NCBI RefSeq assembly: GCF_900111125.1
Contig: NZ_FOGE01000004.1
Coordinates: 248,001-312,000 of the forward strand
Direction of reading: 5' to 3'
DNA from: Sphingobium sp. YR768
GTDB lineage: Bacteria > Pseudomonadota > Alphaproteobacteria > Sphingomonadales > Sphingomonadaceae
DNA: 64,000 nt
The notes beneath the pieces are model-generated. The model had not been told where the DNA came from. It searched no databases and was given only the letters and a program-made list of their open reading frames with translations. This document shows positions 7,195 to 22,486 of this stretch, in pieces. Position 1 is the first letter of the stretch. Each line of letters opens with the position of its first letter. The translations under genes were made by a program, and so were the position numbers.

Positions 7195-7302
7195 TGCCTT
7201 ATGGGTCAGCATCATCGCATTCTGGTATAAGCTCCAGACCTGGGGCCGATCGATATTCAGAAGATGACGGAGCGAAAATGGTGGATTTTCGCGACCCTTG
7301 AA

Positions 7303-7320
7303 ACGAGTCACGTGCCTCGT
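7303..7320. repeat. TCACGTGC-loop hairpin, copy A (with preceding hairpin 7272-7292)
   Basis: Stem ACGAG/CTCGT closes the 8-nt loop TCACGTGC. Ten bases before it lies a perfect hairpin GCGAAAAT-GGTGG-ATTTTCGC (7272-7292). AAACGAGTCACGTGCCTCGT is identical over 20 bases to copy C near 22.46 kb. The element sits 41 bp beyond the 3' end of the nuclease gene, in a convergent intergenic region. Confidence 0.7.
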
Positions 7321-7361
7321 CCCAACATTTGCAGCCCGTCAGGGCTGAATGTCGATTGGGC

Positions 7362-7883
7362 CTAGCACCAGGGGTGGCGCCTGCCGTCCCACTCGCGGGC
7401 CAGTCCTTCGGCGACCAGTTGGTCCCCGATCGACTGGCCTTCGCGCGTCACGATGCGCAGCTTGCGGCCGTAACGATCGGTCCTGCGCCCTTCCACTTCC
7501 AGAGAAAAGGCCCCCGCATTCATCAGCCCCTGCAACCGGTCCGTAGCCCGCTTGCCCAGAGTGCCCTCCTCCTCGCAACGCGGCCCATGGGTTTCGGGCG
7601 TATCGATGTCGGCGATCCGGTATTTCTCGCCCCGGAACCAGAAAGTGTCGCCATCGACCACGCAATTCGTCCCGCCGCCTGAATGGCAATATCCGAAATC
7701 GGCGGACAGGCTATCGACGGCCACGCTTTGCGGCGCTGGCGTGCTACCGGGCAAGTCGATCCGCGCCATCCATCCCGGCCCATACCAGCCGAGCAACAGT
7801 CCCAGACATAATGTATAGATCAGCGCCGGGCCGCTGAATCCCGCCCTTTTCTGCCGCCCGCGCGCATATCCCTGTCTTGCCAT
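7362..7883 (-). CDS. Membrane-anchored thermonuclease (SNase-like) family protein
   Basis: 173 residues. A basic start (MARQGYARGRQKR) is followed by a hydrophobic segment at about 18-35, so it is either a signal anchor or an uncleaved signal peptide exporting the nuclease. The staphylococcal-nuclease fold is marked by VVDGDTFWFRG, the RIADIDTPE calcium/active-site strand, the TLGKRAT helix and the RRTDRYGRKL box. Staphylococcal nuclease uses Arg, Glu and Asp from these elements. Expected role: Ca-dependent hydrolysis of DNA/RNA outside the cytoplasm. It is convergent with the glycine-zipper gene. Confidence 0.85.
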   Translation of the reverse strand: MARQGYARGRQKRAGFSGPALIYTLCLGLLLGWYGPGWMARIDLPGSTPAPQSVAVDSLSADFGYCHSGGGTNCVVDGDTFWFRGEKYRIADIDTPETHGPRCEEEGTLGKRATDRLQGLMNAGAFSLEVEGRRTDRYGRKLRIVTREGQSIGDQLVAEGLAREWDGRRHPWC

Positions 7884-7961
7884 CCCCCGGCTCTAGCGGG
7901 CGATAGGCAAACAGCGCGTTAAAGCCGCGCCACTTTATCCCCGATCCGGCGCATCCCCGAT

Positions 7962-7975
7962 TTGACCCACATCAA
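7962..7975 (+). promoter_or_regulatory. FNR/FixK-type box TTGAC-CCAC-ATCAA upstream of the globin gene
   Basis: The site matches the TTGAT-N4-ATCAA consensus at 9 of 10 defined positions. It lies 60 bp before the globin ATG at 8035. Low-oxygen control of a globin is biologically sensible. The FNR/FixK regulator itself is not in this window. Confidence 0.6.
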
Positions 7976-8034
7976 TGCCCCGCAGGCACGACACGCCATG
8001 CTGCCCCGGATCATCCGAAACGGAGCCGATAGCC

Positions 8035-8451
8035 ATGAACGCCGCCGCCCCGCCCAGCCCTTATGTCCGCATCGGCGGTGAGCCGGCCGCCCGTGCACTC
8101 GCCAATCGCTTCTATGATCTGGTGGAGCAGGACCCGGCCTATGCGGCGTTGCGTGCCATCCACCCCGCCGACATGACCGCCGTGCGTCATGGCCTGACCC
8201 GCTTCCTGTGCGGCTGGCTGGGCGGCCCGCGCGACTGGTTCGAACGCGGGCCGTGCATCATGTCGCTGCACCGCGCCTTCCCGATTACCCCGGCGCTGGC
8301 CGATCAATGGGCCACCGCCATGGCCTGCGCCATTGCCGGAATGGAGGATATCGATCCCGCCATCGGCGACGCCATGGCGCAGGCGCTGGGTCATATGGCG
8401 CGCGGCATGATCAATTTCGGGCTGACAACCGCCAGCCCGGCCGCCGCCTAA
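8035..8451 (+). CDS. Group II truncated hemoglobin
   Basis: 138 residues from the ATG at 8035; an in-frame upstream ATG at 7975 overlaps the FNR-type box and lacks globin sequence. The 2-on-2 globin fold is marked by YVRIGGE at the A/B start, RFYDLV (B helix with Tyr27), LTRFLCGWLGGP before the F helix, SLHRAFPI with the proximal heme ligand His79, and DQWATAM with the conserved G-helix Trp92. Group II globins bind O2/NO and are linked to redox or NO handling in the cytoplasm. Its last 4 bp overlap the convergent acidic-protein gene. Confidence 0.9.
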   Translation: MNAAAPPSPYVRIGGEPAARALANRFYDLVEQDPAYAALRAIHPADMTAVRHGLTRFLCGWLGGPRDWFERGPCIMSLHRAFPITPALADQWATAMACAIAGMEDIDPAIGDAMAQALGHMARGMINFGLTTASPAAA

Positions 8452-8753
8452 TCCTCGTCCTCTTCCTTGTCGGTCGGCCCGTAACTGTCCTCCTCATCAT
8501 CCATCTGCGGCTCCCCGGCATAGGCATCCATGTCGATCCGGCCGGACCGGTTCATCGCCTCCATCTTCTCGACCAGATCCTCCGTGTCGTCAGGCATCAC
8601 CTGCGCCACATTGGCCCGGCCGCCCCGCTCGCTATCCTCGCTCAGGTCCGTGGACCGGGCGCGCGCATCCTCCGCCATATCCTGCGCCTGGGTGCCGGCT
8701 TCGGCCTGTTCGCTATTCTCTTCAATCTCGCGGTCGGGGGTAGGGCGCGCCAT
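8448..8753 (-). CDS. Small acidic hydrophilic protein
   Basis: 101 residues from the ATG at 8753, chosen over the ATG at 8759 because AGGAG lies 7 bases before the former and 1 base before the latter. The protein is strongly charged, with no hydrophobic segment; it starts MARPTPDREIEENSEQAEAG and ends in an Asp/Glu-rich tail (MDDEEDSYGPTDKEEDED). It is probably cytoplasmic and partly disordered. I know no function. It converges on the globin gene with a 4-bp overlap. Confidence 0.65.
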   Translation of the reverse strand: MARPTPDREIEENSEQAEAGTQAQDMAEDARARSTDLSEDSERGGRANVAQVMPDDTEDLVEKMEAMNRSGRIDMDAYAGEPQMDDEEDSYGPTDKEEDED

Positions 8754-8892
8754 GGCCATTCTCCTGTCGGGTGTGTGATCCTCCCTTAACGGCTGGCCGC
8801 GCGCGCCTGTTCCGGGCGAAAGCGCTGGACAGCCCGCGCTACAGGGCGCAAAGGCGCGGGCGATCCTTTCGCACTGCAACAGGAATCCCCTC

Positions 8893-9273
8893 ATGTCCCG
8901 CCAGCTCATTTCCTCCGGCTCGCCTTTCGAGGCGCAGGTCGGCTATTCGCGCGCCGTCGTCCAGGGCGACTGGTGCTTCGTCGCCGGCACCACCGGCACC
9001 GATCCCGAAACCAAGACCATGCCCGAAGATGTGGTCGAACAGGGCCGCAACGCGCTCAAGGTGATCGGCAAGGCGCTGGAAGACGCCGGCTTCGCCTTTG
9101 CCGATGTCGTACGCGTGACCTATTATATCACCGACGCCGCCTATTGGGATGTGATGGGTGAGATCGCTGGCCCCGTTTTCGGCGACATTCGCCCGGCGGC
9201 CAGCTGCGTCATCGCCGGCCTCGTCAAGCCGGAGATGAAGATCGAGATCGAAGTCACCGCCTTCAAAGGGTAA
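8893..9273 (+). CDS. RidA family (YjgF/UK114) protein
   Basis: 126 residues, slightly longer than the roughly 110-130 family norm's lower end. Marks are GYSRAVVQGDWCFVAGTTG (family: sRAv..g..v.vsGt.g), the VVEQGRNALKVIGKALEDAG helix and DVVRVTYYITD. The C-terminal IRPAASCVIAGL holds the Arg that binds the substrate carboxylate in enamine/imine deaminases. Canonical RidA hydrolyses reactive 2-aminoacrylate formed by PLP enzymes; divergent subfamilies differ, so the substrate is uncertain. It is 15 bp ahead of the ArsC-like gene and likely in one operon with it. Confidence 0.88.
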   Translation: MSRQLISSGSPFEAQVGYSRAVVQGDWCFVAGTTGTDPETKTMPEDVVEQGRNALKVIGKALEDAGFAFADVVRVTYYITDAAYWDVMGEIAGPVFGDIRPAASCVIAGLVKPEMKIEIEVTAFKG

Positions 9274-9288
9274 CAGGAGCAGCGCGTC

Positions 9289-9648
9289 ATGATTACCATG
9301 TATGGCATCAAAAATTGCGACACGATCAAGAAGGCCCGCAACTGGCTGGATAATGAGCGCGTCGCCTATAATTTCCACGACTATAAGGTCGCCGGCGTCG
9401 ACAAGACGAAGCTGGAAGAATGGGTGATGGAGCATGGCTGGGAAACCATCCTCAACCGCTCCGGCACCACCTTCAAGGCGCTGGACGCGGGCGACAAGGC
9501 GCATATCGATGCGGACAAGGCGATCCTGCTGATGATCACCAACCCCTCGATGATCAAGCGCCCCATCCTCGACACCGGCCGGGGCGAAACGATCGTCGGC
9601 TTCAAGGCGACCACTTATGAAAACGCGCTTCAGGGCGTGAAGGCATGA
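9289..9648 (+). CDS. ArsC/Spx-like (YffB subfamily) thioredoxin-fold protein
   Basis: 119 residues. The N-terminal MYGIKNCDTIKKARNWL gives the single active cysteine of the ArsC family (GIxNCDTxKKAxxWL), followed by FHDYK and NRSGTTFKAL. It ends IKRPILDTGRGETIVGF, the family's cis-Pro region. YffB-type members bind glutathione and are not proven arsenate reductases, so I do not call it arsC. Its stop overlaps the start of the phosphodiesterase gene by 4 bp (ATGA), so the two are probably translationally coupled. Confidence 0.88.
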   Translation: MITMYGIKNCDTIKKARNWLDNERVAYNFHDYKVAGVDKTKLEEWVMEHGWETILNRSGTTFKALDAGDKAHIDADKAILLMITNPSMIKRPILDTGRGETIVGFKATTYENALQGVKA

Positions 9649-10688
9649 TCGGGCGGGGGCTGCTGCGCATCGGGTTGTTTCTGCTGATGAGCCTCATCCC
9701 CCTCCAGATAGTGCGGGCCGAACCGATCCTGATCGCCCATCGCGGCGCCAGCGGCGAACGGCCCGAACATACGCTCGCCAGCTATGAACGGGCGATCGAT
9801 CAGGGCGCCGATTTCATCGAGCCGGATCTGGTCCTGACGAAGGACGGCGTCCTTGTCGCCCGGCATGAAAATGAGATAAGCGGCACCACCGACGTCGCCG
9901 ACCATCCCGAATTTGCCGATCGCAAGACGACGAAGCAGATCGACGGTATCGACATGGTCGGCTGGTTCACCGAGGATTTCACCCTCGCCGAACTGCGTAC
10001 CCTGCGGGCGCGCGAACGCCTCCCCGATCTGCGCCCCGCCAACAAGCGCTTCAACGATCTCTATCTGATCCCGACCTTAGAAGAGATATTGAAGCTGGTC
10101 CGCGCCAAGGAAGCGGAAACCGGCCGCCGCATCGGCCTCTATCCCGAAACCAAGCATCCCAGCTATTTCGCGAAGATCGGCCTGCCGCATCAGGCGCCGA
10201 TGCTCGCGATGCTGGCCAAATATGGTTATGAAAATGCCGACGACCCGGTGTTCATCCAGTCGTTCGAGGTCGGCAATCTGAAAGCCCTTCGCACCGCCAC
10301 CCGGCTGCGCCTGATCCAGCTCGTCGATGCGGAGGGCGGCCCGGCCGATCTGCCCGGCGTCACCTATGCGGACATGCTGATGGTACAGGGGCTGAGCGAT
10401 ATCGCGACCTATGCCGATGGGGTCGGCCCCTCGGCCGCGCTGATCATCGCGCCCGAAGGCCCAACCGCGCTGGTCGGCCGCGCCCATGATGCGGGCTTGC
10501 AGGTCCATGTCTGGACGCTGCGGATGGAAAACAGCTTCCTTCCCGCCCAGTTTCAGCGGCTGGACGATCCGCAAGGGCGCGGCGACTTCACCGGCTATGT
10601 CCAGGCGATCGCCGCCACCGGCGTCGACGGCATCTTCAGCGACTTCCCCGGACAGGCCCGCGCGGCGCTGGGTGCGAATAGCCACTGA
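9645..10688 (+). CDS. Glycerophosphodiester phosphodiesterase, exported
   Basis: 347 residues with a signal peptide (RGLLRIGLFLLMSLIPLQIV-RAEP). The TIM-barrel GDPD domain starts at once: LIAHRGASGERPEHT holds the catalytic HRG...PE(N/H)T box, then FIEPDLVLTKDGVLVARHE with the metal-binding E/D and His. LYPETKHPSYF supplies the next Glu, and VDGIFSDFPGQA closes the barrel. It hydrolyses glycerophosphodiesters to glycerol-3-phosphate and alcohol, probably in the periplasm, which would feed the glpD/glpK pathway near 36-39 kb. It lies third in the ridA-like/arsC-like run. Confidence 0.9.
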   Translation: MIGRGLLRIGLFLLMSLIPLQIVRAEPILIAHRGASGERPEHTLASYERAIDQGADFIEPDLVLTKDGVLVARHENEISGTTDVADHPEFADRKTTKQIDGIDMVGWFTEDFTLAELRTLRARERLPDLRPANKRFNDLYLIPTLEEILKLVRAKEAETGRRIGLYPETKHPSYFAKIGLPHQAPMLAMLAKYGYENADDPVFIQSFEVGNLKALRTATRLRLIQLVDAEGGPADLPGVTYADMLMVQGLSDIATYADGVGPSAALIIAPEGPTALVGRAHDAGLQVHVWTLRMENSFLPAQFQRLDDPQGRGDFTGYVQAIAATGVDGIFSDFPGQARAALGANSH

Positions 10689-10702
10689 CCATCACCCACC
10701 AT

Positions 10703-10722
10703 GCTCCTGCGAAAGCAGGAGC
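10703..10722. repeat. Dispersed hairpin GCTCCTGC-GAAA-GCAGGAGC
   Basis: Perfect 8-bp stem with a GNRA (GAAA) loop, followed by CCAGGGCG. This is the core of a widespread alphaproteobacterial intergenic repeat. It sits 14 bp past the phosphodiesterase stop and may protect the mRNA 3' end. Confidence 0.7.
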
Positions 10723-10835
10723 CCAGGGCGAAACCGCGCATCCGACGATCCCTGGCGCGGAAATCCCTGAAAAACTTCTTTCTCGATTCCCCTGCTTGAC
10801 TTGCCAAAGCCGCCTCGCACGCGAATAACGGACCC

Positions 10836-11261
10836 ATGTTGTCCCAGAAGACCCGTTATGCCATCCGCGCGCTCCAGCATCTCGCCGATCGCTACCGCCA
10901 GGGTCCGGTTCCGTTGAACGAGATCGCCACGCGCCAGAATATTCCGGCCAAATTCCTGACCGTGATCCTGTCTGAACTGTCGCGCGAAGGGCTGGTCGCG
11001 ACCCAGCGGGGCCGGGACGGGGGCTATTGGCTGGCGCTGGCGCCGGTCGACATCAGCTACGGCGACATCGTCCGCCTGACCCGCGGCTCGCTCGCGCTCA
11101 CCCCCTGCGCCAGCCGCTTCGCCCATGAAAGCTGCACCAACTGCCTGCCCGAATCGGAATGCCGCCTCCACCGCGTCATGCTCCGCGTCCGCGACGAAAC
11201 CGCCAAGGTGCTGGACAGCATCAGCCTGGCCGAACCGTTCGCGATGGAAGGCGCGGAGTAG
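10836..11261 (+). CDS. Rrf2 family transcriptional regulator with cysteine cluster
   Basis: 141 residues. The winged-helix N-terminus reads MLSQKTRYAIRALQHLA with IATRQNIPAKFLTVILSELS as recognition region and RGRDGGYWLA as wing, all typical of Rrf2. Four cysteines, C91, C100, C103 and C109, fall where IscR/NsrR-type members bind an Fe-S cluster, though with an extra cysteine, so redox or NO sensing is plausible. A TTGACT-like -35 is visible near 10797. The targets are unknown; a repeat-rich gap separates it from the downstream hydrolase. Confidence 0.85.
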   Translation: MLSQKTRYAIRALQHLADRYRQGPVPLNEIATRQNIPAKFLTVILSELSREGLVATQRGRDGGYWLALAPVDISYGDIVRLTRGSLALTPCASRFAHESCTNCLPESECRLHRVMLRVRDETAKVLDSISLAEPFAMEGAE

Positions 11262-11269
11262 GAGCTATT

Positions 11270-11291
11270 CCCCTCCCGCCAGCGGGAGGGG
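11270..11291. repeat. Hairpin CCCCTCCCGC-CA-GCGGGAGGGG
   Basis: Perfect 10-bp stem, 9 bp after the Rrf2 gene stop. No T-run follows. It is a dispersed repeat type that may act as a transcript end or stabiliser. Confidence 0.65.
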
Positions 11292-11370
11292 CAGCGAGAC
11301 TTGGTTCGGCGCAGCCGGACCTAGTCGCAGCGGGGTGGGCATTAGCAACGTTGCGCATGCCCACTCCCTT

Positions 11371-11394
11371 GATGGGAGTCACGTGCCTCCCATC
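11371..11394. repeat. TCACGTGC-loop hairpin, copy B (with preceding hairpin 11335-11364)
   Basis: Stem GATGGGAG/CTCCCATC closes the same TCACGTGC loop. Six bases upstream is a hairpin GTGGGCAT.../...ATGCCCAC (11335-11364) with an inner GCAACGTTGC palindrome. The stem differs from copies A and C but pairs fully, so the differences are compensatory. It lies between the Rrf2 and MBL-hydrolase genes. Confidence 0.7.
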
Positions 11395-11487
11395 GACCCC
11401 TTCCGTCTACGGGAGGGGGAACAAGGCGCCCCCTCCCAATCCCCCAAGAGGCTTGCACATGCCTCCCCCGTCCGCCACATCCTCCCC

Positions 11488-12147
11488 ATGACCACGCCGC
11501 CGCTCAAAGCCGTCCTGATCCCCGTCACCCCGCTCCAGCAGAATTGCACCCTCTTCTGGTGCACGGAAACGATGCGCGGCGCCTTCGTCGATCCGGGCGG
11601 CGACCTGCCCGTGCTCAAGAAAGCAGCTGCCCAACATGGCGTCACGATCGAGAAGCTGCTCGTCACCCATGGTCATATCGACCATTGCGGGCAGGCGGGC
11701 GTGCTGGCGCGCGACTTCAATGTCCCGATCGAGGGGCCGCATGAGGATGATCGTTTCTGGATCGACCGGCTGCCGCAGGATGGCGAGCGCTGGGGCGTAC
11801 CCGGCGAAAGTTTCGAGCCGGACCGCTGGCTGAATGACGGCGATCAGGTGACGGTCGGCAACCTGACCTTCGACGTCATCCATTGCCCCGGTCACACGCC
11901 CGGCCATGTCGTCTTCCATCACGCCCCCAGCAAGCTGGCCATTGTGGGCGACGTGCTGTTTCAGGGATCGATCGGCCGCACCGACTTCCCGCGCGGCAAT
12001 CATCAGGATCTGATCGACGCGATCACCGGCAAGCTCTGGCCACTGGGCGGCGAAACGGCCTTCGTCCCCGGCCACGGCCAGATGAGCAATTTCGCCCATG
12101 AACGCCGCACCAACCCCTTCGTCGCCGATTCGGTGCTGGCCGGGTAA
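11488..12147 (+). CDS. MBL-fold metallo-hydrolase, glyoxalase II-like (YcbL type)
   Basis: 219 residues from the ATG at 11488; the upstream open frame runs through intergenic repeats and is not protein-like. Zinc ligands are in THGHIDHCGQ (HxHxDH), CPGHTPGH, IVGDVLF (bridging Asp) and the late PGHG. The LQQNCTLFW start and DPGG turn are typical of YcbL/glyoxalase II-like thioesterases. It probably hydrolyses a glutathione thioester or a similar small substrate in the cytosol; the substrate is not certain. Confidence 0.88.
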   Translation: MTTPPLKAVLIPVTPLQQNCTLFWCTETMRGAFVDPGGDLPVLKKAAAQHGVTIEKLLVTHGHIDHCGQAGVLARDFNVPIEGPHEDDRFWIDRLPQDGERWGVPGESFEPDRWLNDGDQVTVGNLTFDVIHCPGHTPGHVVFHHAPSKLAIVGDVLFQGSIGRTDFPRGNHQDLIDAITGKLWPLGGETAFVPGHGQMSNFAHERRTNPFVADSVLAG

Positions 12148-12234
12148 TCCTCCCCGGCACGGGGAGGGGGACCGCTTGCGCAGCAAGGGGTGGAGGGGGC
12201 TGCGTCGCGGGAGTATCGAGCCCTAAATAGAGCT

Positions 12235-12308
12235 CGTTCGGGCTGAGCCTGTCGAAGCCCTGTTCTTTTTTCAAGAAGTACAGCCCTTCGACAGGCTCAG
12301 GGCGAACG
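12235..12308. repeat. Dispersed inverted repeat CTGAGCCTGTCGAAG / CTTCGACAGGCTCAG
   Basis: Arms CGTTCGGGCTGAGCCTGTCG and its complement, ending CGAACG, face each other around a TTCTTTTTTCAAGAA centre. This is a common sphingomonad intergenic repeat; a degraded second copy is at 16118-16203. It lies between the convergent hydrolase and MAPEG genes. Confidence 0.8.
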
Positions 12309-12359
12309 GATACAGAGGTGATCCCGATTTGGCGCACGATGCTCTAAAGAATCGCGCAA

Positions 12360-12791
12360 TTACACCCGCGCCGCCATCGCCGGCGGCACCGGCATTTCGC
12401 GCGTCGCGCCATAGGCGATGCTGAGCGCCGTCCCGGCCATCACGATCATGATCCCCCAGGTCAGCAGCGCACCGCCCGCGCGCCACGCCGTGGGCTTGTC
12501 CGCATCCATGCCGAACGCATGGGCGACCCGCGCCACCACATAGACCAGCGCCCCGATCCACAGCCATAGCGAAGCACCCACCGCCATCTCGACCAGGGCG
12601 AAGAGAATCAGCACGATCGGCGTATATTCGACATAATTGGCATGCGCCCGCATCCGCCGCGCCAGCAGGCCGTGCCCGGCGTCGCCGTGCAATATCTTGT
12701 CCTTGATCCGGAACCGGGCGCACCGAATCGCCAGCCAGAAGTTGAGCAGCGCACAGGCGGCGGCAAAGGTCAGCGTAATCGGCAGCAGCAT
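12360..12791 (-). CDS. MAPEG family integral membrane protein
   Basis: 143 residues from the ATG at 12791. Four hydrophobic helices are visible: about 2-20 (LLPITLTFAAACALLNFWL), 58-76 (YTPIVLILFALVEMAVGAS), 78-93 (LWLWIGALVYVVARVA) and 111-130. Between the first two lies the cytoplasmic loop GHGLLARRMRAHANYVEYTP, whose RxxRAHxNxxEY motif defines MAPEG (membrane-associated proteins in eicosanoid and glutathione metabolism). Bacterial members may have glutathione transferase activity, but the substrate is unknown. It is convergent with the MBL gene across the dispersed repeat. Confidence 0.85.
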   Translation of the reverse strand: MLLPITLTFAAACALLNFWLAIRCARFRIKDKILHGDAGHGLLARRMRAHANYVEYTPIVLILFALVEMAVGASLWLWIGALVYVVARVAHAFGMDADKPTAWRAGGALLTWGIMIVMAGTALSIAYGATREMPVPPAMAARV

Positions 12792-12868
12792 GGTCAAATC
12801 CCTGTTATTCCGTGAAGCGCACCGTAGAGCGCCTTGGGGAAGGGACAAGGGCAAAGGGAAGGAAGGAC

Positions 12869-12896
12869 TTGCGCCTCCGGCAAAAAGCGCTATAGG
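12869..12896 (+). promoter_or_regulatory. Candidate promoter TTGCGC-N16-TATAGG upstream of rpmF
   Basis: TTGCGC at 12869-12874 and TATAGG at 12891-12896 are spaced 16 bp, close to alphaproteobacterial housekeeping promoters. It lies 115 bp before rpmF, on the correct strand. The leader between (ACCCGGGCCGC.., GGCGCCGTTGGCGTC..) is GC-rich. Confidence 0.4.
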
Positions 12897-13010
12897 CGCA
12901 GGGCTTCGCGATCACCCGGGCCGCATGGGTCTGCGGCGCCGTTGGCGTCGGCATCCTTTGGGAACCGGCCAGTCGCAAAACCTGATTAATTTATGGAATA
13001 AGGTGCCGAC

Positions 13011-13190
13011 ATGGCTGTCCCCAAGCGCAAAACTTCTCCCTCCAAGCGCGGCATGCGTCGCAGCCATGATTCGCTGCGCGTCGAAGCGTTCAACGAATGC
13101 TCGAACTGCGGTGAGCTGAAGCGTCCCCACAATCTGTGCGACGCTTGCGGTCACTATAACGGCCGCGAAATCGTCGCCGTCGGGGCCTGA
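13011..13190 (+). CDS. rpmF: 50S ribosomal protein L32
   Basis: 59 residues, [20 protein letters not shown]..., a full-length bL32. The [18 protein letters not shown] region is the zinc-ribbon form with two CxxC pairs (C+ type), so this L32 can bind zinc. It heads the rpmF-plsX-fabH order conserved in many proteobacteria. ATG at 13011 is preceded by GGAATAAGGTG. Confidence 0.97.
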
Positions 13191-13225
13191 GCCCGTTTCT
13201 GAACTCCGCAAAGGGGTGAATTAGA

Positions 13226-14284
13226 GTGTCCAGCCAACCGCGAATCGCAATCGACGCGATGGGCGGGGATGAAGGCGTGCGCGTGATGATGGCGGGGGCT
13301 GCTTTGGCCCGTCGCCGTCATGATGGCCTGCGTTTCACCCTGTTCGGCGACGAGGAGCGGATCAAGGCGGCGCTCGACCATCACCCCAATTTGCGGGCGG
13401 CGTCGGACATCGTCCATGCCGATACGGTCGTCGACGGCTCCGACAAGCCGAGCGTCGCGATTCGCAAGAAAACCAGCTCCATGGCCATGGCCATCGCTGC
13501 CGTGAAGGCGGGCGAGGCTGGCGCTGCCGTTTCTGGCGGCAATACCGGCGCGCTGATGGCGATGGCGAAGGTCGCCTTGCGCACCATGAAGGGTGTCGAT
13601 CGTCCTGCGCTGGCAGCCATGCTGCCTACGCTCGGCGACAATGACGTCATCATGCTGGACCTGGGCGCCAATACCGAATGCGACGCCCGCAACCTCGTCC
13701 AGTTCGCGGTGATGGGGGCTGCCTATGCCCGCATCGCTCTCGATCTTGATCGTCCGCGCGTCCGCCTGCTCAACATCGGCACCGAAGAGCTGAAGGGCAC
13801 CGACGAGATTCGCGATGCCGCCGCCGTGCTGCGCGCCGCCGACAATCTCTCGCTCCAGTTCGATGGCTTCACCGAAGGCGACAAGATCGCCCGCGGCGAT
13901 ACCGACGTCATCGTGTGCGATGGCTTCTCCGGCAATGTCGCACTGAAGACGGCCGAAGGTACGGCCCGTTTCGTGACCGACGTGCTGCGCAAGGCGTTCA
14001 CCAGTTCGATCCGCTCGAAGATCGGCTTCCTGATCTCGAAGCCGGCCATGTACATGCTCAAGCATCATCTTGACCCCAACAACCATAATGGCGCGGTTTT
14101 CCTGGGCCTCAATGGCGTGGTGGTGAAGAGCCATGGCAGCGCGGACGAAAAGGGCGTGGCCAATGCCGTGCATGTCGCCGCCCGCCTGCTGGAAGAAGAT
14201 ATTACCCGGCGCATCGCAGCCGACATCGCCGATATTCAGTCGCTGGCCGATGTAGCGTCAAAGCTGGAGCTGTCCGCCAAGTGA
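13226..14284 (+). CDS. plsX: Phosphate acyltransferase PlsX
   Basis: 352 residues, GTG start at 13226 (family start [12 protein letters not shown] follows directly). Converts acyl-ACP to acyl-phosphate, feeding PlsY in phosphatidic acid synthesis at the membrane surface. Family marks are [45 protein letters not shown] and [16 protein letters not shown]. Length is normal. It lies 36 bp after rpmF, and its stop overlaps the fabH start by 4 bp (GTGA), so lipid synthesis genes are coupled. Confidence 0.97.
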
Positions 14285-15361: not shown

Positions 15362-15658
15362 ATGAGCGACAATGGAACCCTGACGCGCGCGGATCTGGCG
15401 GAAAGTGTCAATCGGCACGTCGGCCTGTCGCGGGCCGAAGCGGCGGCGCTGGTGGAATCGATCCTCGAACATATGTCGACGGCGCTGGCGCGCGGCGAAA
15501 ATGTGAAGATTTCCAGCTTCGGCACCTTCGTCCTGCGCGACAAGACCGAGCGTATGGGCCGCAATCCCAAGACCGGCGTGGAAGTGCCGATCGAACCGCG
15601 CCGGGTGCTCACTTTCCGCGCCAGCCAGACGATGCGGGATCGTGTCGCCTCGATTTGA
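15362..15658 (+). CDS. ihfA: Integration host factor subunit alpha
   Basis: 98 residues of HU/IHF fold: [20 protein letters not shown] at the N-terminus, the [21 protein letters not shown] strand-turn, and the DNA-inserting arm [20 protein letters not shown] with the intercalating Pro. The [11 protein letters not shown] form and the neighbourhood (fabH-ihfA-merR) identify the alpha subunit over HU. It bends DNA as a heterodimer with IhfB. An inverted repeat GATCATC/GATGATC at 15316-15335, 27 bp upstream, could be an operator. Confidence 0.94.
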
Positions 15659-15738
15659 GACGATCGGGCCCTTTTCCAATATTACCATTGCTTTACCATA
15701 GTTGACGTTGCCCCCTGGATGGGTGCAACATCCTCGTC

Positions 15739-16083
15739 ATGGAAAAGGAAGAGGGTGCATTTCTGACCATCAGCGAGCTGGCTGGCGAGCTTGGTCTTCC
15801 CCAACATATCTTGCGCTATTGGGAAACCCGCTTCCCGCGATTGCGCCCGCTCCAGCGGTCCGGAAACCGACGTTACTACCGCCCGGCTGACGTCGCGCTC
15901 GCGCGGCGTATCCACCAGCTGCTCAATGTCGAAGGCTTCACCGTCAAGGGCGCGCAAAAGGCGCTAGAGGATGGCGAGGCCACGCCCACGCCCGCCGCGG
16001 CACCGGCCTGCATTGCTGACACCGATCTGCTGGTCCGCCTGCGAGAAATCCGCACGACGCTGGCCAGCGCCATCGGCGACTAG
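15739..16083 (+). CDS. MerR family transcriptional regulator
   Basis: 114 residues. The winged-helix start LTISELAGELGLPQHILRYW with the ETRFPRLRPLQRSGNRRYYR wing is the MerR DNA-binding domain. A short dimer helix follows, and the C-terminus is brief (LLVRLREIRTTLASAIGD) without cysteine ligands, so no metal-binding loop is evident. This small MerR protein regularly follows ihfA in alphaproteobacteria; its targets are unknown to me. The ATG at 15739 follows GTTGACGTTGCCCC. Confidence 0.88.
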   Translation: MEKEEGAFLTISELAGELGLPQHILRYWETRFPRLRPLQRSGNRRYYRPADVALARRIHQLLNVEGFTVKGAQKALEDGEATPTPAAAPACIADTDLLVRLREIRTTLASAIGD

Positions 16084-16117
16084 GGCGACGCCCGTAAAAT
16101 GGGATTACCTTTGTAGC

Positions 16118-16203
16118 CGTTCGCCCTGAGCCTGTCGAAGGGCCGTACTTCTTGATGAACAGGGTAGGGCCTCGACAAGCGCAGCCTCACTCAGCACGAA
16201 CGG
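16118..16203. repeat. Degraded copy of the CTGAGCCTGTCGAAG inverted repeat
   Basis: Starts CGTTCGCCCTGAGCCTGTCG and ends CAGCACGAACGG. The right arm has decayed (CCTCGACAAGCGCAGCCTCA), so the palindrome is imperfect compared with 12235-12308. It lies between the convergent merR and GNAT genes. Confidence 0.7.
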
Positions 16204-16234
16204 TCCATGTTCAGGGTGCGATGCTCTTACCGCC

Positions 16235-16753
16235 CTACAACGCCCGCGCGTAGATCAGGTCGCGGAACGGTACGTCGCCGACCATGAAGGTCAGCTCGCC
16301 AATTTCCTCAAAGCCATGGCGCGCATAGAATCGCCGCGCCCGGTCATTCTGCGGATAGACCGCCAGCAACAGCCGCTTCGCCCTACGCCGCTGCGCTTCC
16401 TCCAGCACCAGCGTCATCAGCCGGTCGCCATTGCCACCGCCCTGCCAGCCATGCAGCAGATAGATGCGCTTCAGCTCGACATCCTGCGCGTCGGTCGGCA
16501 CCGGCAGGGCAGGCGGCGTGATCAGCGCATAGCCGACCGGCGCGCCCAGTGGCGTCTCCCCGATCAGCAGCGTCTGCGCCGGATCGCTCAAGGCGGCCTG
16601 ATAATAGCCCTCGCCATGGGCGCCGCGAATATGGCTCAGCAGCGCCGCGCCCGGATGATCATGGGCAAAGCTGGCAAGGAAGGTCGCACCACCCAATATC
16701 GACAGCGCCCCGGCATCCGCCGCCTCCGCCCGGCGCCACAGGATCGGCGTCAT
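16235..16753 (-). CDS. GNAT family N-acetyltransferase
   Basis: 172 residues from the ATG at 16753 (MTPILWRRAEAADAGALSIL). A longer frame upstream would overlap the phosphatase gene and lacks homology. The acetyl-CoA site is ELKRIYLLHGWQGGGNGDRL, a Q/RxxGxG/A-type pyrophosphate loop, then LLLAVYPQNDRARRFYARHG, the C-terminal GNAT strand-helix with the conserved N and Y. The substrate is unknown. It is third in a helicase-phosphatase-GNAT run on the minus strand, 10 bp after the phosphatase stop. Confidence 0.85.
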   Translation of the reverse strand: MTPILWRRAEAADAGALSILGGATFLASFAHDHPGAALLSHIRGAHGEGYYQAALSDPAQTLLIGETPLGAPVGYALITPPALPVPTDAQDVELKRIYLLHGWQGGGNGDRLMTLVLEEAQRRRAKRLLLAVYPQNDRARRFYARHGFEEIGELTFMVGDVPFRDLIYARAL

Positions 16754-16763
16754 GCCCGGCGGC

Positions 16764-17306
16764 TCAGCGGGTGCCCGGCCCGAGCGCCGGGTCGAGGTCG
16801 CGGGGGCGGGTGAAGCTGGCCAGCGTCGCCACATTGTCGCGCGCCTCGCTCCAGCGGTCGATCGCCAGATCCATCACGGCGATGCTGGCGGTGGGGAATT
16901 TCACCTCCACATCCTCGCGCAGCGGGCTGATCCCGTCATCGGGCACCAGATCCAGAATCAGTTCCTCCAGCCCCGGATTATGTCCCGCCATCAATACACT
17001 GTCGGCGCTGTCGGGCAGGTCGCGCACGACATCGAACAGCGTAGGCGAGGAGGCCAGATAGATGCGCCGGTCCCAGCGCGCGTCCAGCGTCTCGCCATAG
17101 CCTTCGAAGAAAGTCTCCAGCGTCTGCACCACGCGCACCGCGGGGGAGGCGACCAGCAGGTCGAACTGCATCTTCCGCTTGGCGGCAAACTGGCCCATCA
17201 GCAACGCCGCCTTTTCCCCGCGACGATTCAGCGGGCGATCAAAGTCGCGCGCCACCGGATCGTCCCAGTCCGATTTGGCGTGGCGCAACAGGGTCAGCCG
17301 CTTCAT
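16764..17306 (-). CDS. SixA-like histidine phosphatase
   Basis: 180 residues. LTLLRHAKSDWDD is the RHG/RHA catalytic box with phospho-acceptor His9, FDRPLNRRGEKAA is typical of SixA, VASPAVRVVQT provides the second Arg, and LMAGHNPGLEEL gives the second catalytic His. Family members dephosphorylate phosphohistidine proteins or small phosphoesters in the cytoplasm. Its start overlaps the helicase stop by 4 bp (17303-17306), indicating coupling. Confidence 0.88.
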   Translation of the reverse strand: MKRLTLLRHAKSDWDDPVARDFDRPLNRRGEKAALLMGQFAAKRKMQFDLLVASPAVRVVQTLETFFEGYGETLDARWDRRIYLASSPTLFDVVRDLPDSADSVLMAGHNPGLEELILDLVPDDGISPLREDVEVKFPTASIAVMDLAIDRWSEARDNVATLASFTRPRDLDPALGPGTR

Positions 17307-20056
17307 TGTTTCTCCTGTTGGGGCAAATCGGATTCGCCCCCCTGATGCCCTAACGACGCGGTTTCGCCAAGCGTTTCGCGGCGGGCGGCAACGCTGACGG
17401 CGATGATCGCCTCGTCCAGCGTCAGGCGGCGCACCGGCGTTCCGGGCGGAAAGGCGCTCAGCAACCGGCTGGGCATGGCGGCCGACAATATGACGAAGCT
17501 GCCCCGGTCCTCGGCCCGGCGGATCAGGCGACCAAAGGCCTGCGCCAGCCGCGCCCGGATCAGCCGGTCGTCATAGGCGCTGCCCCCGCCCGCCAGCCGC
17601 CGCGCCGCGTGCAGCACGGTGGGCTTGGACCATGGCACGCCCTCCATCACCACCAGCCGCAGTGAATGGCCCGGCACGTCCACGCCGTCCCGCAACGCAT
17701 CGGTGCCCAGCAGGGACGCGCGCGGATCATCGCGGAAAATGTCGACCAAGGTGCCGGTATCCATCGGATCGACATGCTGGGCGTAAAGCGGCAGTCCGCC
17801 CCGCGCCAGCCGGTCGGCGATCCGCGCATGCACCGCGCGCAGCCGCCGGATCGCGGTGAACAGTCCCAGCGTCCCGCCGCCCGCAGCCTCGATCAGCCGG
17901 GCATAGGCGCCCGACATGGCGGCGATATCGCCCTTTTTGATATCGGTGACGATCAGCACTTCGGCCTGGCCCGGATAGTCGAAGGGACTCGCTGCCTCGA
18001 ACCGTTCCGCGCCATGGGGCAGGTGGATCGTGCCGCTGCGCGCCTCCGCATTGCTCCATTCCCCGCCGCCCTTCAGCGTCGCCGATGTCAGCAGCACGCC
18101 CTGCGCCGGCTTCAGCACCGTTTCGGCGAGCGGCCGTGTCGGGTCCAGCCAGTGGCGATGGATGCCGATATCATATTCGCGCCCCTCGACCCGGTCGACC
18201 GTCATCCAGTCGACATAGTCGGCGTCGGCCGGCCCGCCGATCCGCGTCAGCAGCGCCAGCCAGGCCGCGATCAGGTCGCGCCGCCAGCCCAGCGAGGCCA
18301 CCGCGCCCTCGATCCGCGCCCGCGCGGCGCCGTCCAGCCAGTCGGGCGCGTCCTCGATTACCGCCTCCAGCCGCCGCGCCAGCCGCACCAGCGGCTTGAT
18401 CAGGGCATCCAGCGCCAGCGCCGCTTCCTGCGCCGCCTCCACCAAAGCGCCATCAGGCTCGGCCAGTTCGGTTTCCAGCCCATAGCCGGCATCCGCCTCG
18501 CCGGCCGCCTCCGCACGGGTATAGACCGTGCCGCGCACCGCCGCGAGCAGCCCCTCCAGCGGCCCGAACGGCTCACCAGCCACCACGCGCTTCAGCCAGT
18601 CATCAGCCGGCAGCGCCTGCGCCGCGTCCACCGCCGCGCGGATCGCCTGCCCGCCTTCCTCGTCATAGCTCGCCATGTCGGACAGGCGCGCCGCCAGCCC
18701 TCGCCGCCGCCCGCGCGATCCGCCTTCCGGCCCCATGATCCAGCGGCGCAGCTCGATCGCCTCCTGCCCCGACAAGGCGACGGAGAAGGTCGAATCCGCC
18801 GCGTCGAACAGATGATGCCCTTCGTCGAACACAATGCGCTGCGGCCGCTGCCCCGTCTCGCGCCCGCGCGCGGCGTTGATCATCACCAGCGCATGATTGG
18901 CGATGACGATGTCCGCGTCGGCGGAAGCGCGCGCCGACCGCTCGATGAAGCATTTGCGATAATGCGGGCAGCCCGCGTAAATACACTCGCCCCGCCGGTC
19001 GGTCAGCGCCGTGGAGCCATTGCGGCGGAACAGGGTCGGCAACCATCCGGGCAGGTCGCCGCCCACCATGTCGCCATCCTTGGTGAAGGCGGCCCAGCGC
19101 GCCACCAGCTGCGCCAATATCGCGGCCCGCCCGGCAAAGCCGCCCTGCAAGGCATCTTCCAGATTCAGCAGGCAGAGATAATTTTCCCGCCCCTTGCGCA
19201 CCACCACCCGCCGCGCGGCCATGGCGGGATCGGGAAACAGGCGCAGCGTTTCGCGGTCCAGCTGTCGTTGCAGCGCCTTGGTATAGGTCGACACCCACAC
19301 CGTCCCCTGCGCTTCGGTTGCCCAGAGCGAAGCCGGGGCCAGATAGCCCAATGTCTTGCCGATCCCGGTGCCGGCTTCCGCCAGCAGCATATTGGGCTGG
19401 TCGCGATGCTTGCGCGGTGTGAAGGCGATGCGGGCGGCGGCGGCATAGGCGCGCTGGCCGGGGCGCGGCTCCGCGCCCGCGCCGGTCAGCGCGTCCAGCC
19501 GGGCCAGCACCTGATCCTCCGCCAGGCTGACGGTGCGCGGGGCCGGACGGGGCTGTGTCTCCTCCCATTCGGGCAGCTTGGAGAAGAGCCAGCGTTCCGC
19601 TTCGCGCGGGCGGGCGATGCGCGGCGCGACCAATGGCGACCAGGGCCAGCGCATCCGGTGCAGCGATTGCGCGGCGGTCCATCCGCCCTCACGCTCCACC
19701 CAGTCGGGCGCATCCAGCCGGGCCAGCAGCAATGTGGCAGCCTGTTGCAGCAGCGCAGGAATATCCCCTTCATTGCCCGGCGCGGGCAGGCCCAGCGCTT
19801 CGGCCAGCCCCTTGGGCGTGGGCACCAGAAAACGGGCGGGATGCAGAAAGGCCCAGAGTTCCAGCAGGTCGAGGCCATTCAGCTCCGGATAGCCAAGCCT
19901 TTGTCCGGTCAGCGGCGCATTGAGCAGCAGCACCGGCGTTTCAGCCGCGCGGGCAATCGCCTGCCCCTTGGCCAGCGCATGGGTATCGTCGCCCTCGCGC
20001 AGCCAGATGCCGCCATGGCTGGCGTGAAGCGCGGGCAGGGATGCGGGGTCGATCAC
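17303..20056 (-). CDS. DinG-like Fe-S superfamily 2 DNA helicase
   Basis: 917 residues, GTG start at 20056. An N-terminal region of about 200 residues with no clear motif precedes the helicase: Walker A AEAGTGIGKT (226-235), Fe-S cysteines C295, C358, C363 and C369 between motif I and II, DEGH box (411-414), and a C-terminal TSATLKG plus GTDALRDGVDVPG and a QAFGRLIRR motif VI. This matches XPD/DinG-type 5'-3' helicases that unwind D-loops, R-loops or G4 DNA. The long N-terminal extension is absent from E. coli DinG (716 residues). It leads the phosphatase and GNAT genes. Confidence 0.9.
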   Translation of the reverse strand: MIDPASLPALHASHGGIWLREGDDTHALAKGQAIARAAETPVLLLNAPLTGQRLGYPELNGLDLLELWAFLHPARFLVPTPKGLAEALGLPAPGNEGDIPALLQQAATLLLARLDAPDWVEREGGWTAAQSLHRMRWPWSPLVAPRIARPREAERWLFSKLPEWEETQPRPAPRTVSLAEDQVLARLDALTGAGAEPRPGQRAYAAAARIAFTPRKHRDQPNMLLAEAGTGIGKTLGYLAPASLWATEAQGTVWVSTYTKALQRQLDRETLRLFPDPAMAARRVVVRKGRENYLCLLNLEDALQGGFAGRAAILAQLVARWAAFTKDGDMVGGDLPGWLPTLFRRNGSTALTDRRGECIYAGCPHYRKCFIERSARASADADIVIANHALVMINAARGRETGQRPQRIVFDEGHHLFDAADSTFSVALSGQEAIELRRWIMGPEGGSRGRRRGLAARLSDMASYDEEGGQAIRAAVDAAQALPADDWLKRVVAGEPFGPLEGLLAAVRGTVYTRAEAAGEADAGYGLETELAEPDGALVEAAQEAALALDALIKPLVRLARRLEAVIEDAPDWLDGAARARIEGAVASLGWRRDLIAAWLALLTRIGGPADADYVDWMTVDRVEGREYDIGIHRHWLDPTRPLAETVLKPAQGVLLTSATLKGGGEWSNAEARSGTIHLPHGAERFEAASPFDYPGQAEVLIVTDIKKGDIAAMSGAYARLIEAAGGGTLGLFTAIRRLRAVHARIADRLARGGLPLYAQHVDPMDTGTLVDIFRDDPRASLLGTDALRDGVDVPGHSLRLVVMEGVPWSKPTVLHAARRLAGGGSAYDDRLIRARLAQAFGRLIRRAEDRGSFVILSAAMPSRLLSAFPPGTPVRRLTLDEAIIAVSVAARRETLGETASLGHQGGESDLPQQEKQ

Positions 20057-20097
20057 CCGTAGGGTTTAGGCGAACGGGAACAAAAGGAAAACCTGTT

Positions 20098-20448
20098 TCA
20101 GCCGGCGCGCCGTCCAAAACCGCCTGCGACATTGAGGCGCGGCTGGAAGGCGACCGGCGCACGCTGGGCGGCGCGTGCCAGTTCCAGCTTGTCGAACAGC
20201 GGACCATCATTCAGTTCATAGGGGAAACGAATGCCCATCCGGTCCTCTTCGGACCAGCGTACCGTGCCGAATACGACATGGCCGTCCAGATCGAGCTGGC
20301 ATTGTGATCGCGGCGGCAGGGTGCAGCCCACGACTTGCGCGCCCCCTTCGCTCAGGTCGACGATCATGCCTTCCAGGCTGTCGAGCACGGTCGTCACCAC
20401 GATGGGAATCTCCACCGTAATACGCTCATGACTACGTTTGACCTGCAT
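20098..20448 (-). CDS. PilZ domain c-di-GMP-binding protein
   Basis: 116 residues, essentially one PilZ domain. The c-di-GMP site is present: an RxxxR pair (R5...R9 in KRSHERITVEIP) and the DLSEGGAQV (D/N-x-S-x-x-G) turn. The barrel ends with RMGIRFPYEL. A Pro/Arg-rich tail follows. It is transcribed away from lysK; the only other c-di-GMP genes in the window are the cyclase near 40 kb and a second PilZ near 48.6 kb. Confidence 0.87.
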   Translation of the reverse strand: MQVKRSHERITVEIPIVVTTVLDSLEGMIVDLSEGGAQVVGCTLPPRSQCQLDLDGHVVFGTVRWSEEDRMGIRFPYELNDGPLFDKLELARAAQRAPVAFQPRLNVAGGFGRRAG

Positions 20449-20588
20449 ATCGCCTCCGATCCTGCTTAATATAGCAGGCAGAATTACTTAAAAGTAAATA
20501 TGAGAACGGTTCTTATCAGGCTTTGTCATGCATTGCCATCAAAGGGCGTTCCCTTTCGATCGGCCAGCAGCTAGGGGCTTTCGTCATT

Positions 20589-22181
20589 ATGACAGTGTCC
20601 GACATTCTCCGCACCGCCGCAAACGCATCCAAGGCCTGGCCCTATGAGGAGGCGCGCAAGCTTCTCAAGCGCTATTCCAACGGCGCGCCGGAGAAAGGGC
20701 ATATCCTGTTCGAAACCGGCTATGGTCCCTCGGGCCTGCCGCATATCGGCACCTTCAACGAAGTGCTGCGCACCACCATGGTCCGCAATGCCTATCACGC
20801 CCTGTCGGATATCCCGACCCGTCTGGTGGCGTTCAGCGACGATATGGATGGCCTGCGCAAGGTGCCGGGCAATGTCCCCAATCAGGCGATGCTGGAAGAA
20901 CATCTGGGCAAGCCGCTGACGCAGGTGCCCGATCCGTTCGAAAAGTTCGAAAGTTTCGCCCATCATAACAATGCGATGCTGCGCGATTTTCTCGACAGCT
21001 ACGGCTTCGAATATGAATTCGTGTCCGCCACCGAGCGCTATAAGGCCGGGGCCTTCGATGAAGCGCTGCGGCAGGTGCTGCGCCGTTATCAGGCGATCAT
21101 GGACATCATGCTGCCGACCCTGCGCAAGGAACGGCAGGCGACCTATTCCCCGGTCCTGCCGATCAGCCCGAAGAGCGGCATCGTGCTTCAGGTGCCGGTT
21201 GAGGTGATCGACGCCGAGGCGGGCATCGTTCGCTTCGAAGACACTTCCGTCCCTGGGGGCGACATCATCGAACAGTCGATCCTGTCGGGCGGCGCGAAGC
21301 TGCAATGGAAGGTCGACTGGGCGATGCGCTGGTACGGGCTGGGCGTTGACTATGAAATGGCGGGCAAGGATCTGATCGATTCGGTCACCCAATCGTCCAA
21401 GATCTGCCGCGCGCTGGGCGGCCGCCCGCCCGAAGGCTTCAATTATGAGATGTTCCTCGACGAAAAGGGCGAGAAAATCTCCAAGACCAAGGGCAATGGC
21501 CTCAGCCTCGAACAATGGCTGACCTATGGCCCGCAGGAAAGCCTGGCCTTCTACGCCTATCGCGAACCCAAGAAGGCGAAGCAGCTGCACATGGGCGTCA
21601 TCCCGCGCGCAGTGGACGAATATTGGCAGTTCCGCGCCAATTATCCACGCCAAGCGATCGAACAACAGCTCGGCAACCCGGTGCATCATATCCATGATGG
21701 CAAGCTGCCGCAGGGCGAACTGCCCGTCACTTTCGGCCTGCTGCTGAACCTCGTCGGCGTGATGGGCGATGCCAGCCGCGAACAGGTGTGGAGCTATCTG
21801 CAAAATTATGTGCCCGGCGCCAGCGCGGAGACCTATCCGGAACTGGACGCGCTGATCGGCCATGCGCTCGCCTATCATCGCGATTTCGTCGCCCCCACGC
21901 TCCAGCGCCGGCCACCGCACGCGAACGAAGCCGCCGCCCTGCGCCAGTTGGACAGCGAACTGGCCGCGCTGCCGGCCGATGCGTCGGCCGAAGATATCCA
22001 GAATATCGTCTATGCCATCGGCAAGGATGAGGCGTTCGGCTTTGCTGAACTGCGCGACTGGTTCAAGGCGCTGTATCAGACCTTGCTGGGCGCGGATCAG
22101 GGGCCACGCATGGGCAGCTTCATCGCGCTCTACGGCATCGACAACAGCCGCAAGCTGATTGCCGAGGCGCTCGCTTCTTGA
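20589..22181 (+). CDS. lysK: Class I lysyl-tRNA synthetase
   Basis: 530 residues from the ATG at 20589 (MTVSDILRTAANASKAWPYE). The upstream in-frame extension is non-conserved. It is the archaeal-type class I enzyme found in many alphaproteobacteria, not the common class II LysS. Signature HIGH is in GYGPSGLPHIGTFNEV and KMSKS is KISKTKGNGLSLE. It charges tRNA-Lys in the cytoplasm. The divergent promoter region shared with the PilZ gene holds CCTGCT-TAATAT-AGCAGG, a possible hairpin or operator. Confidence 0.95.
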   Translation: MTVSDILRTAANASKAWPYEEARKLLKRYSNGAPEKGHILFETGYGPSGLPHIGTFNEVLRTTMVRNAYHALSDIPTRLVAFSDDMDGLRKVPGNVPNQAMLEEHLGKPLTQVPDPFEKFESFAHHNNAMLRDFLDSYGFEYEFVSATERYKAGAFDEALRQVLRRYQAIMDIMLPTLRKERQATYSPVLPISPKSGIVLQVPVEVIDAEAGIVRFEDTSVPGGDIIEQSILSGGAKLQWKVDWAMRWYGLGVDYEMAGKDLIDSVTQSSKICRALGGRPPEGFNYEMFLDEKGEKISKTKGNGLSLEQWLTYGPQESLAFYAYREPKKAKQLHMGVIPRAVDEYWQFRANYPRQAIEQQLGNPVHHIHDGKLPQGELPVTFGLLLNLVGVMGDASREQVWSYLQNYVPGASAETYPELDALIGHALAYHRDFVAPTLQRRPPHANEAAALRQLDSELAALPADASAEDIQNIVYAIGKDEAFGFAELRDWFKALYQTLLGADQGPRMGSFIALYGIDNSRKLIAEALAS

Positions 22182-22329
22182 TCTGAATCAACCATGCTGC
22201 GGAACAATCTGGCGGCATGATCGTTACGCGCAACGGTCCACCCCCCTTTCGGACTGGTGGCGTGCCCCGCGTACGCCATCGGCCGCGTGCGCCCGGAAAC
22301 GGGCGGCGCGGCCAAGTGGGGGGAACAGC

Positions 22330-22372
22330 AAAAAGGCGGCCCGGAATTCGCTATTCCGGGCCGCCTTTTTTT
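22330..22372. terminator. Bidirectional rho-independent terminator
   Basis: An 18-bp perfect stem (AAAAAGGCGGCCCGGAAT with ATTCCGGGCCGCCTTTTT) around TCGCT, with T-runs on both strands. It can end lysK transcripts on the plus strand and RcnB-side transcripts on the minus strand. Confidence 0.9.
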
Positions 22373-22458
22373 GGACATGCGCCTCTGGCGCATCCGCACC
22401 GGCCCGCCCCCCCACCCGACCGTCCAGACATGGTATCCTGATGGGAGGTCGGGTGGGG

Positions 22459-22486
22459 TTCAAACGAGTCACGTGCCTCGTTTGAA
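22459..22486. repeat. TCACGTGC-loop hairpin, copy C (with preceding hairpin 22410-22458)
   Basis: A 10-bp stem TTCAAACGAG/CTCGTTTGAA closes loop TCACGTGC; it is the longest stem of the three copies. It directly follows, with no gap, a hairpin whose 12-bp arms are CCCCACCCGACC (22410-22421) and GGTCGGGTGGGG (22447-22458). On the minus strand it is downstream of the RcnB-like gene. Confidence 0.75.

Follow-up and report, generated by a model that had tools for sequence, protein, structure and literature searches.

The DNA analyzed here, referred to as the window, is a 64-kb stretch of Sphingobium sp. YR768 (contig NZ_FOGE01000004.1, positions 248,001 to 312,000), and it contains three copies of a 28-bp hairpin unit. 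The unit has the form N7-GAG-TCACGTGC-CTC-N7', in which the 14-nt tip is constant and the 7-nt arms are variable yet complementary. The 14-nt core, GAGTCACGTGCCTC, was found exactly at 7305-7318, 11376-11389 and 22466-22479 on the forward strand. Unit 1 (7298-7325, forward strand; TTGAAAC-GAG-TCACGTGC-CTC-GTCCCAA) is decayed, with 8 of 10 pairs counted by eye. Unit 2 (11369-11396, forward strand; TTGATGG-GAG-TCACGTGC-CTC-CCATCGA) has 10 pairs including one T-G pair, and unit 3 (22459-22486, forward strand; TTCAAAC-GAG-TCACGTGC-CTC-GTTTGAA) has a perfect 10-bp stem. The initial annotation of this DNA had described three hairpins with an identical core and no other CACGTG in the window, and this description was confirmed.

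The 5.73-Mb genome of Sphingobium sp. YR768 has 23 exact cores, 15 on the forward and 8 on the reverse strand, while the reversed control gave none; three copies per 64 kb is dense by comparison. All three CACGTG sites of the window lie within the units, where shuffled sequence would be expected to contain 16 ± 3.9. Genome-wide, TCACGTGC occurs 29 times outside the 23 cores and the reversed control also 29 times, so that the scarcity of CACGTG is not demonstrated as genome-wide avoidance. When about 1.14 Mb of sequence was scanned for repeated hairpins, the core topped the list with 58 arm sets and the runner-up had 6. Since this sequence came from loci collected around the core, the scan is informative only on the sharpness of the stem and the variety of the arms. 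The stem was 10 bp long in 67 entries, 11 bp in 11 and of other length in 8, overlapping loci having been entered more than once.

Host repeats, gene context and distribution

The units sit inside other palindromic repeats, and the three units of the window occupy three different host families. The family labels, A to D, were assigned by eye, as were the approximate limits of the repeats. The host of unit 1 (7249-7365) belongs to family D (gcgaaaatggtggattttcgcgaccc...catttgcagcccgtcagggctg), includes the hairpin at 7272-7292 and has relatives at other loci with and without units. Unit 2 lies in a family-C repeat (11269-11426) with ccctcccgc and gcgggaggg ends, which includes the hairpin at 11335-11364; in the alignment of this family the copy at G000:C38:127156 lacks the unit and the copies of genome G375 have it. 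The family-A host of unit 3 (22374-22534) consists of nested palindromes and includes the hairpin at 22410-22458. The hairpins at 7272, 11335 and 22410, which the initial annotation had noted ahead of the units, are thus pieces of three unrelated types of host repeat and lie outside the unit. Family-A composites with the same unit in the same place recur at a number of loci, also in other species, and units also spread as passengers of these host repeats.

Nested palindromes together with a unit were seen at locus L440 as well as at 22374-22534. A complete, unit-free family-B palindrome (GTTCCCCGGCGAAGGCCGGGG...CCCCGGCGTTCGCCGGGGAAC) is present at 7129-7194, about 100 bp ahead of unit 1. At 7298-7365 unit 1 directly abuts the distal half of its family-D host (CATTTGCAGCCC), and the junction looks like the product of recombination between two units of a single repeat, with deletion of the middle. 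Repeats holding two units were found at L155 and L227.

A crude map of open reading frames placed 37 copies relative to genes. Tandem genes flank 28 of them, 14 on the same strand as the genes and 14 on the opposite one; eight lie between convergent genes, none between divergent genes and one was unassigned. Because 14 of the 37 overlap an open reading frame of this map, the units are intergenic only approximately, although most likely the overlaps arise from start sites set too far upstream. One copy with a decayed stem (L013) is located deep inside a long open reading frame.

The initial annotation had proposed a covariance-model search of related genomes. Of 94 genomes within the genus, 77 had matches to the model of the unit (E 0.01); 17 congeners had no match and others had dozens, the counts per genome being rough because both strands were counted for a near-palindrome and at most 80 candidates per genome were scored. 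With strict filters and limited candidates scored per genome, matches were obtained in 12 of 298 genomes of the family (E 0.001), representing 5 of 96 genera and including some weak matches. In the class, 2 of 385 genomes matched (E 0.001), namely Sphingobium sp. YR768 and one with a single weak match. The exact core is present in 9 of the 298 family genomes. Among the matches listed, contigs with the 10-bp stem came from Sphingobium, Sphingopyxis, Novosphingobium and other Sphingomonadales or Sphingomonadaceae. In IMG/VR, 10 of 24 readable core-bearing stretches have the stem with at most one mismatch (L412, L413, L415, L419, L422, L427, L428, L431, L434 and L435); L427 and L428 are identical in sequence, and L419 and L428 lie on one contig. 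These copies perhaps come from sphingomonad prophages or prophage flanks. A literature search, thin in subscription journals, found no description of the 28-bp unit.

Arm covariation and variation of the tip

For analysis of the arms, copies were picked by the 14-nt core alone among the matches listed, those with duplicate context or lacking a 60-nt flank were removed, and sphingomonad copies were separated from others by eye and by record title. In the 84 sphingomonad copies, Watson-Crick pairing outside the core was found in 80, 84, 79, 77, 72, 71 and 71 copies at distances 1 to 7, respectively, and in 22 and 11 copies at distances 8 and 9. The fall after distance 7 gives a unit length of 28 bp. 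In the 32 core copies from other taxa, pairing at distances 1 to 7 was near chance (5-12 of 32). The covarying stems of the initial annotation are therefore supported, with pairing in 71-84 of 84 copies at all seven arm positions and compensated pairs between orthologs as described below.

Covariation was also scored in 55 sequences, of which 48 had been chosen beforehand to have no more than one mismatch and seven, with perfect arms, were picked for their variant loops. The score was 0.749, a value reached in 0 of 500 shuffles; it was 0.155 in shuffled sequences and did not exceed 0.152 when the partners were slid. Cells changed on both sides numbered 161 compared to 46 by shuffling. Two of the five measures, considered below, show no excess. 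An enlarged set of 143 unit contexts has 63 different left arms, and no stem sequence is common to the whole family. Perfect arms numbered 46. The arm network gave weak support, with a mean nearest distance of 1.37 compared to 1.58 ± 0.09 after shuffling.

The possibility was considered that the units are independent quasi-palindromes produced by template switching during replication. Template switching perfects palindromes and could help to maintain the complementarity of the arms, but it cannot repeatedly create the same 14-nt core or a stem that ends at 10 bp. As the sole cause it is refuted by the common core, and this explanation is extremely improbable.

The loop had been called invariant, which holds within the window only. 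Elsewhere, units have TCACGCGC, CCACGCGC, TCACACGC, TCACGTCC and ACACGTGT loops, and one copy with the TCACGCGC loop is present in Sphingobium sp. YR768 itself (C51:28392). In a tally of 126 units, TCACGTGC accounts for 108, TCACGCGC for seven, ACACGTGT for two and single variants for nine; because most loci were located via the exact core, the share of variant loops is underestimated. In other genomes the left arm of unit 2 occurs either way round and together with TCACGTGC, TCACGCGC, CCACGCGC, TCACGTCC or TCACACGC as the loop. Relatives thus have, on the same arms, TCACGCGC and other loops that lack self-complementarity.

These variants bear on the proposal that the unit is a structured RNA element that acts in 3' untranslated regions through a self-complementary kissing loop. 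The hairpins at 22459 and 11369 are strong when folded as RNA (-15.1 kcal/mol, z -3.9 and -12.1 kcal/mol, z -2.3), and the decayed unit 1 less so (-5.8 kcal/mol, z -1.6). The compensatory changes in the arms and the lack of copies between divergent genes among the 37 on the crude gene map would also be in keeping with an RNA. However, TCACGCGC-like loops could not kiss by self-complementarity, neither strand is favored with respect to the neighboring genes (14 vs. 14), and the unit occurs both ways round at nine non-palindromic kinds of host site and is polymorphic between filled and empty sites, as described below. No Rfam match reached the gathering score when the 64-kb window was scanned. 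Moreover, the placement relative to genes is that of repetitive extragenic palindromic (REP) sequences in general, which generally lie between unidirectional or convergent genes according to Di Nocera et al. 2013 (PMC3733652). An RNA with kissing loops, as the initial annotation had suggested, is consequently very unlikely.

A functional DNA site, either a cruciform or a protein-binding hairpin under selection, is somewhat less improbable but still quite unlikely. The constant 14-nt tip and 10-bp stem resemble a recognition ruler, and the usual core contains GAGTC, a GANTC sequence, at the tip, so that a link to CcrM might be envisaged; Caulobacter CIR repeats take their name from CcrM sites, as stated in PMC10969869. 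Against this, units with ACACGTGT and CCACGCGC loops have no GANTC, the unit model has no match in 17 of the 94 congeners and dozens in others, and the unit is present or absent at one and the same orthologous site.

Filled and empty sites

Host sites were defined by 8 nt of flank on each side, which reduced the 143 unit contexts to 107 sites. An empty counterpart was found for 36 of them, and the modal gap between the flanks in the empty form was 4 nt at 28 sites, 5 nt at seven and 9 nt at one. Examples, with the replaced 4 bp in brackets, are CCACCCCAACCC[CTCC]CCTGAAGGGGAG, TCCCCGGCGCAG[GCCG]GGGTCCAG and GCCTGCAAATGG[CGGC]TTTCCG. A looser comparison with unit-free sequence likewise gave 117 gaps of 4 nt, with 8, 15, 45, 6 and 3 gaps of 2, 3, 5, 6 and 7 nt, respectively, and a longer tail that is mostly unrelated. 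Units with the arms TTGATGG and TTCAAAC occupy 12 host sites each, and both orientations of the unit were found at nine non-palindromic kinds of host site defined by 7 + 7 nt. We infer that the 4-bp form is the older state because, in those cases that were inspected, it fits a regular palindrome of the host.

The same replacement was found at an orthologous locus. A conserved intergenic query (L220:1150-1900) gave a single continuous match in 11 of the 94 genomes, the rest being repeat-free or fragmentary. Seven of the 11 orthologs align through the site, with flanks 81-90% identical to the query, and the other four have a different repeat. In five orthologs (G325, G318, G381, G321 and G377) the site is empty and reads GTAAGG or similar, ACCG, AG. 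In the other two, 28 bp stand in place of ACCG; the arms are TTGAAGC in G380 and TCGAAAC/GTTTCAA in G237. The two units differ by a compensated G-C/A-T pair and by one base in the loop, and that of G237 has an extra mismatch. The orthologs L004 and L228, whose flanks are 78-79% identical on both sides, show the same type of compensated change.

Taken together, the results make it likely that the unit is a mobile 28-bp hairpin that inserts either way round in REP-like repeats of Sphingobium and some other Sphingomonadaceae, mostly replacing 4 bp. Its mobility is well supported, and the direct observations behind it are the ends of the unit, the covariation of the arms, the presence of the same 28-mer in differing contexts and the filled and empty sites, including those of one orthologous locus. 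A retained mobile repeat had been the other suggestion of the initial annotation, and it is the one that the empty and filled sites and the 4-bp replacement bear out.

It could be argued instead that the unit has no mobility of its own and is only a module of larger REP-like repeats, swapped between repeat families when palindromic segments that they have in common undergo homologous recombination or gene conversion. The family-A composites described above fit such a passenger, as do five Sphingopyxis-type copies that have a common bulged arm and, by eye, similar flanks. In contrast, a passenger does not explain why one 28-mer occurs in differing contexts whose junctions coincide with the ends of the unit, mostly with 4-bp replacement, or the 28-for-4 difference at one orthologous locus, and inspection of the junctions by eye revealed no obvious homology by which conversion could be guided. 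Passenger spread alone is therefore unlikely, though it is the strongest of the alternatives.

Several observations weigh against a mobile hairpin. Co-amplification with the host repeats is evident and could account for many copies. In the sequence examined, 71 of the 107 host sites have no empty counterpart, and because the host repeats are related and palindromic, the 36 sites that do have one overstate the number of independent insertion events, for which our guess is about 15. Gaps of 5 nt exist, chiefly in family A and in the length-variable spacer of family C. Just one orthologous locus is split into filled and empty forms, and no insertion event was caught in progress. At the locus of unit 3 (22459), the closest relative, G375, with flanks 94-95% identical, has kept the outer palindrome and is missing the inner palindromes together with the unit; the repeats at this locus are nested in Russian-doll fashion. 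At 11369 the same relative carries a wholly different repeat. Furthermore, two of the five covariation measures in the 55 sequences do not beat shuffles, the pairs with double change numbering 7 compared to 6.8 and the pair types 23 compared to 21.5, and selection on the folded form would also produce covariation of the arms. Finally, no moving enzyme was found.

Candidate movers and relation to known systems

The Y1 transposase (PF01797) of REP-associated tyrosine transposases (RAYT) was considered as the mover. PF01797 is present in 23 of the 94 congeners, in 6 of 13 genomes with at least 20 unit matches and in 17 of the 81 others (Fisher P 0.08), and its association with unit matches across the congeners is weak (Spearman 0.20, P 0.05). 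Since it is absent from seven of the 13 unit-rich genomes (G299, G318, G330, G361, G364, G368 and G375), a Y1 transposase is not required, although an enzyme that has since been lost may have acted in the past. The genes inspected between close unit pairs, named by eye, are oxygenase-like, DUF559-like and phosphoglucosamine-mutase-like, and no transposase was seen among them.

The numbers of GIY-YIG and DUF559 domains correlate with unit matches (0.37 and 0.42, respectively, or 0.32 and 0.36 after removal of genome size, which itself correlates at 0.39). These correlations, in which kinship and REP number are not controlled, serve as a lead only. The flanks of DUF559 genes were compared at the best-scoring loci only (L371-L377, L379 and L380), seven of the nine being distinct as judged by flanking DNA. 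At five of the nine loci an inverted repeat of 15 nt or longer links the two 250-bp flanks, compared to 1 of 400 randomly chosen positions; a hairpin of 9 bp was present on 15 of 18 sides, compared to 83 of 800 in the control. The genes are often flanked by inverted palindromes of the CCCTCTCCC type, which also host units. The DUF559 loci look like nuclease-based REPtrons, and this resemblance suggests that DUF559 nucleases may act on REPs. Among the matches listed, units were near DUF559 domains in G144, G299, G349, G368 and G308, a proximity that may merely reflect the REPs that flank DUF559 genes. At L379 and at L092, which is DUF559-like by eye and probably from the same genome, the DUF559 gene has a unit in each flanking repeat, with differing arms.

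Of the 30 GIY-YIG loci (L311-L340), 21 have inverted repeats of 15 nt or longer, of the CCGTTCG type, near the gene. However, all but three of the 30 have the same flanking DNA and so are one locus, whose protein, where readable, has about 350-390 residues and is not single-domain, and the 9-bp hairpin was present on 0 of 60 sides compared to 83 of 800 in the control. A second common locus is represented by L321, L336 and L337, with inverted repeats of 24, 15 and 28 nt, respectively. GIY-YIG genes were dropped as REP partners because of the single locus and the lack of hairpins.

How the mobile hairpin moves can be proposed in outline. The unit would pass through a folded single-strand stage, a hairpin or cruciform, in which each arm may serve as template for the other; a mutation in one arm would in this way end up as a compensated pair, and the stem would be held at 10 bp. 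The GAG-loop-CTC tip would be the part that is recognized, and a staggered cut with loss of its overhangs would account for the 4 missing bp. DUF559 nucleases, with genes enclosed by inverted copies of one type of host repeat, are one candidate for the target cut. A more far-reaching version, which needs no transposase, is unlikely. In it, REP-flanked DUF559 nucleases would cut REPs with a 4-nt stagger, a folded 28-nt single strand would be captured at the break, and the arms would copy each other in the folded stage. The element would then be inherited as a tip plus a structure and not as a fixed sequence.

A mobile hairpin of this kind would count as one of the smallest mobile DNAs, its tip conserved and its arms variable. 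The exchange of 28 for 4 bases is predicted by no REP or miniature inverted-repeat transposable element (MITE) mechanism known to us. The unit makes testable what moves REPs that lack a known dedicated transposase, such as the CGTC REPs, and whether a folded intermediate of short palindromes forces compensatory evolution. It is also a warning that covarying intergenic hairpins may be mobile DNA and not RNA genes.

Like MITEs, the unit is a small intergenic inverted-repeat element, but it is 28 bp long, loses 4 bp where a target duplication would be expected, and no parent transposon was seen. REPINs and RAYT-mobilized REPs are non-autonomous short mobile hairpins, as the unit appears to be, but the distribution of Y1 described above (23 of 94 congeners, missing from 7 of 13 unit-rich genomes) sets the unit apart. 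The Caulobacter CIR repeats, which belong with the MITEs, are over 100 bp long; GANTC is present in the usual core of the unit and lacking from units with ACACGTGT and CCACGCGC loops. REP palindromes are insertion hot spots for insertion sequences, according to Tobes and Pareja 2006 (PMC1525189); the target is alike, but what inserts in the present case is a hairpin of 28 bp and not an insertion sequence. The unit also has parallels with REPs themselves. In PMC3733652, which also treats REPtrons, the GTAG and CGTC super-families are described as intergenic, high-copy palindromes of 20-40 bp, no dedicated transposase was found for the CGTC REPs, and REPs within other palindromes are reported for T. 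roseum GTAG-23, A. variabilis GTAG-15 and H. neapolitanus CGTC-1. The unit is likewise a high-copy palindrome, intergenic in the approximate sense given above and nested in palindromes. It differs in having no conserved GTAG or CGTC tag, with no conserved tetranucleotide beside the arms in the 84 copies; in its arms, which vary from copy to copy around a constant tip; and in replacing 4 bp with no need of a tyrosine transposase. The unit is thus a REP-like yet tagless, arm-variable hairpin nested in REP-like repeats.

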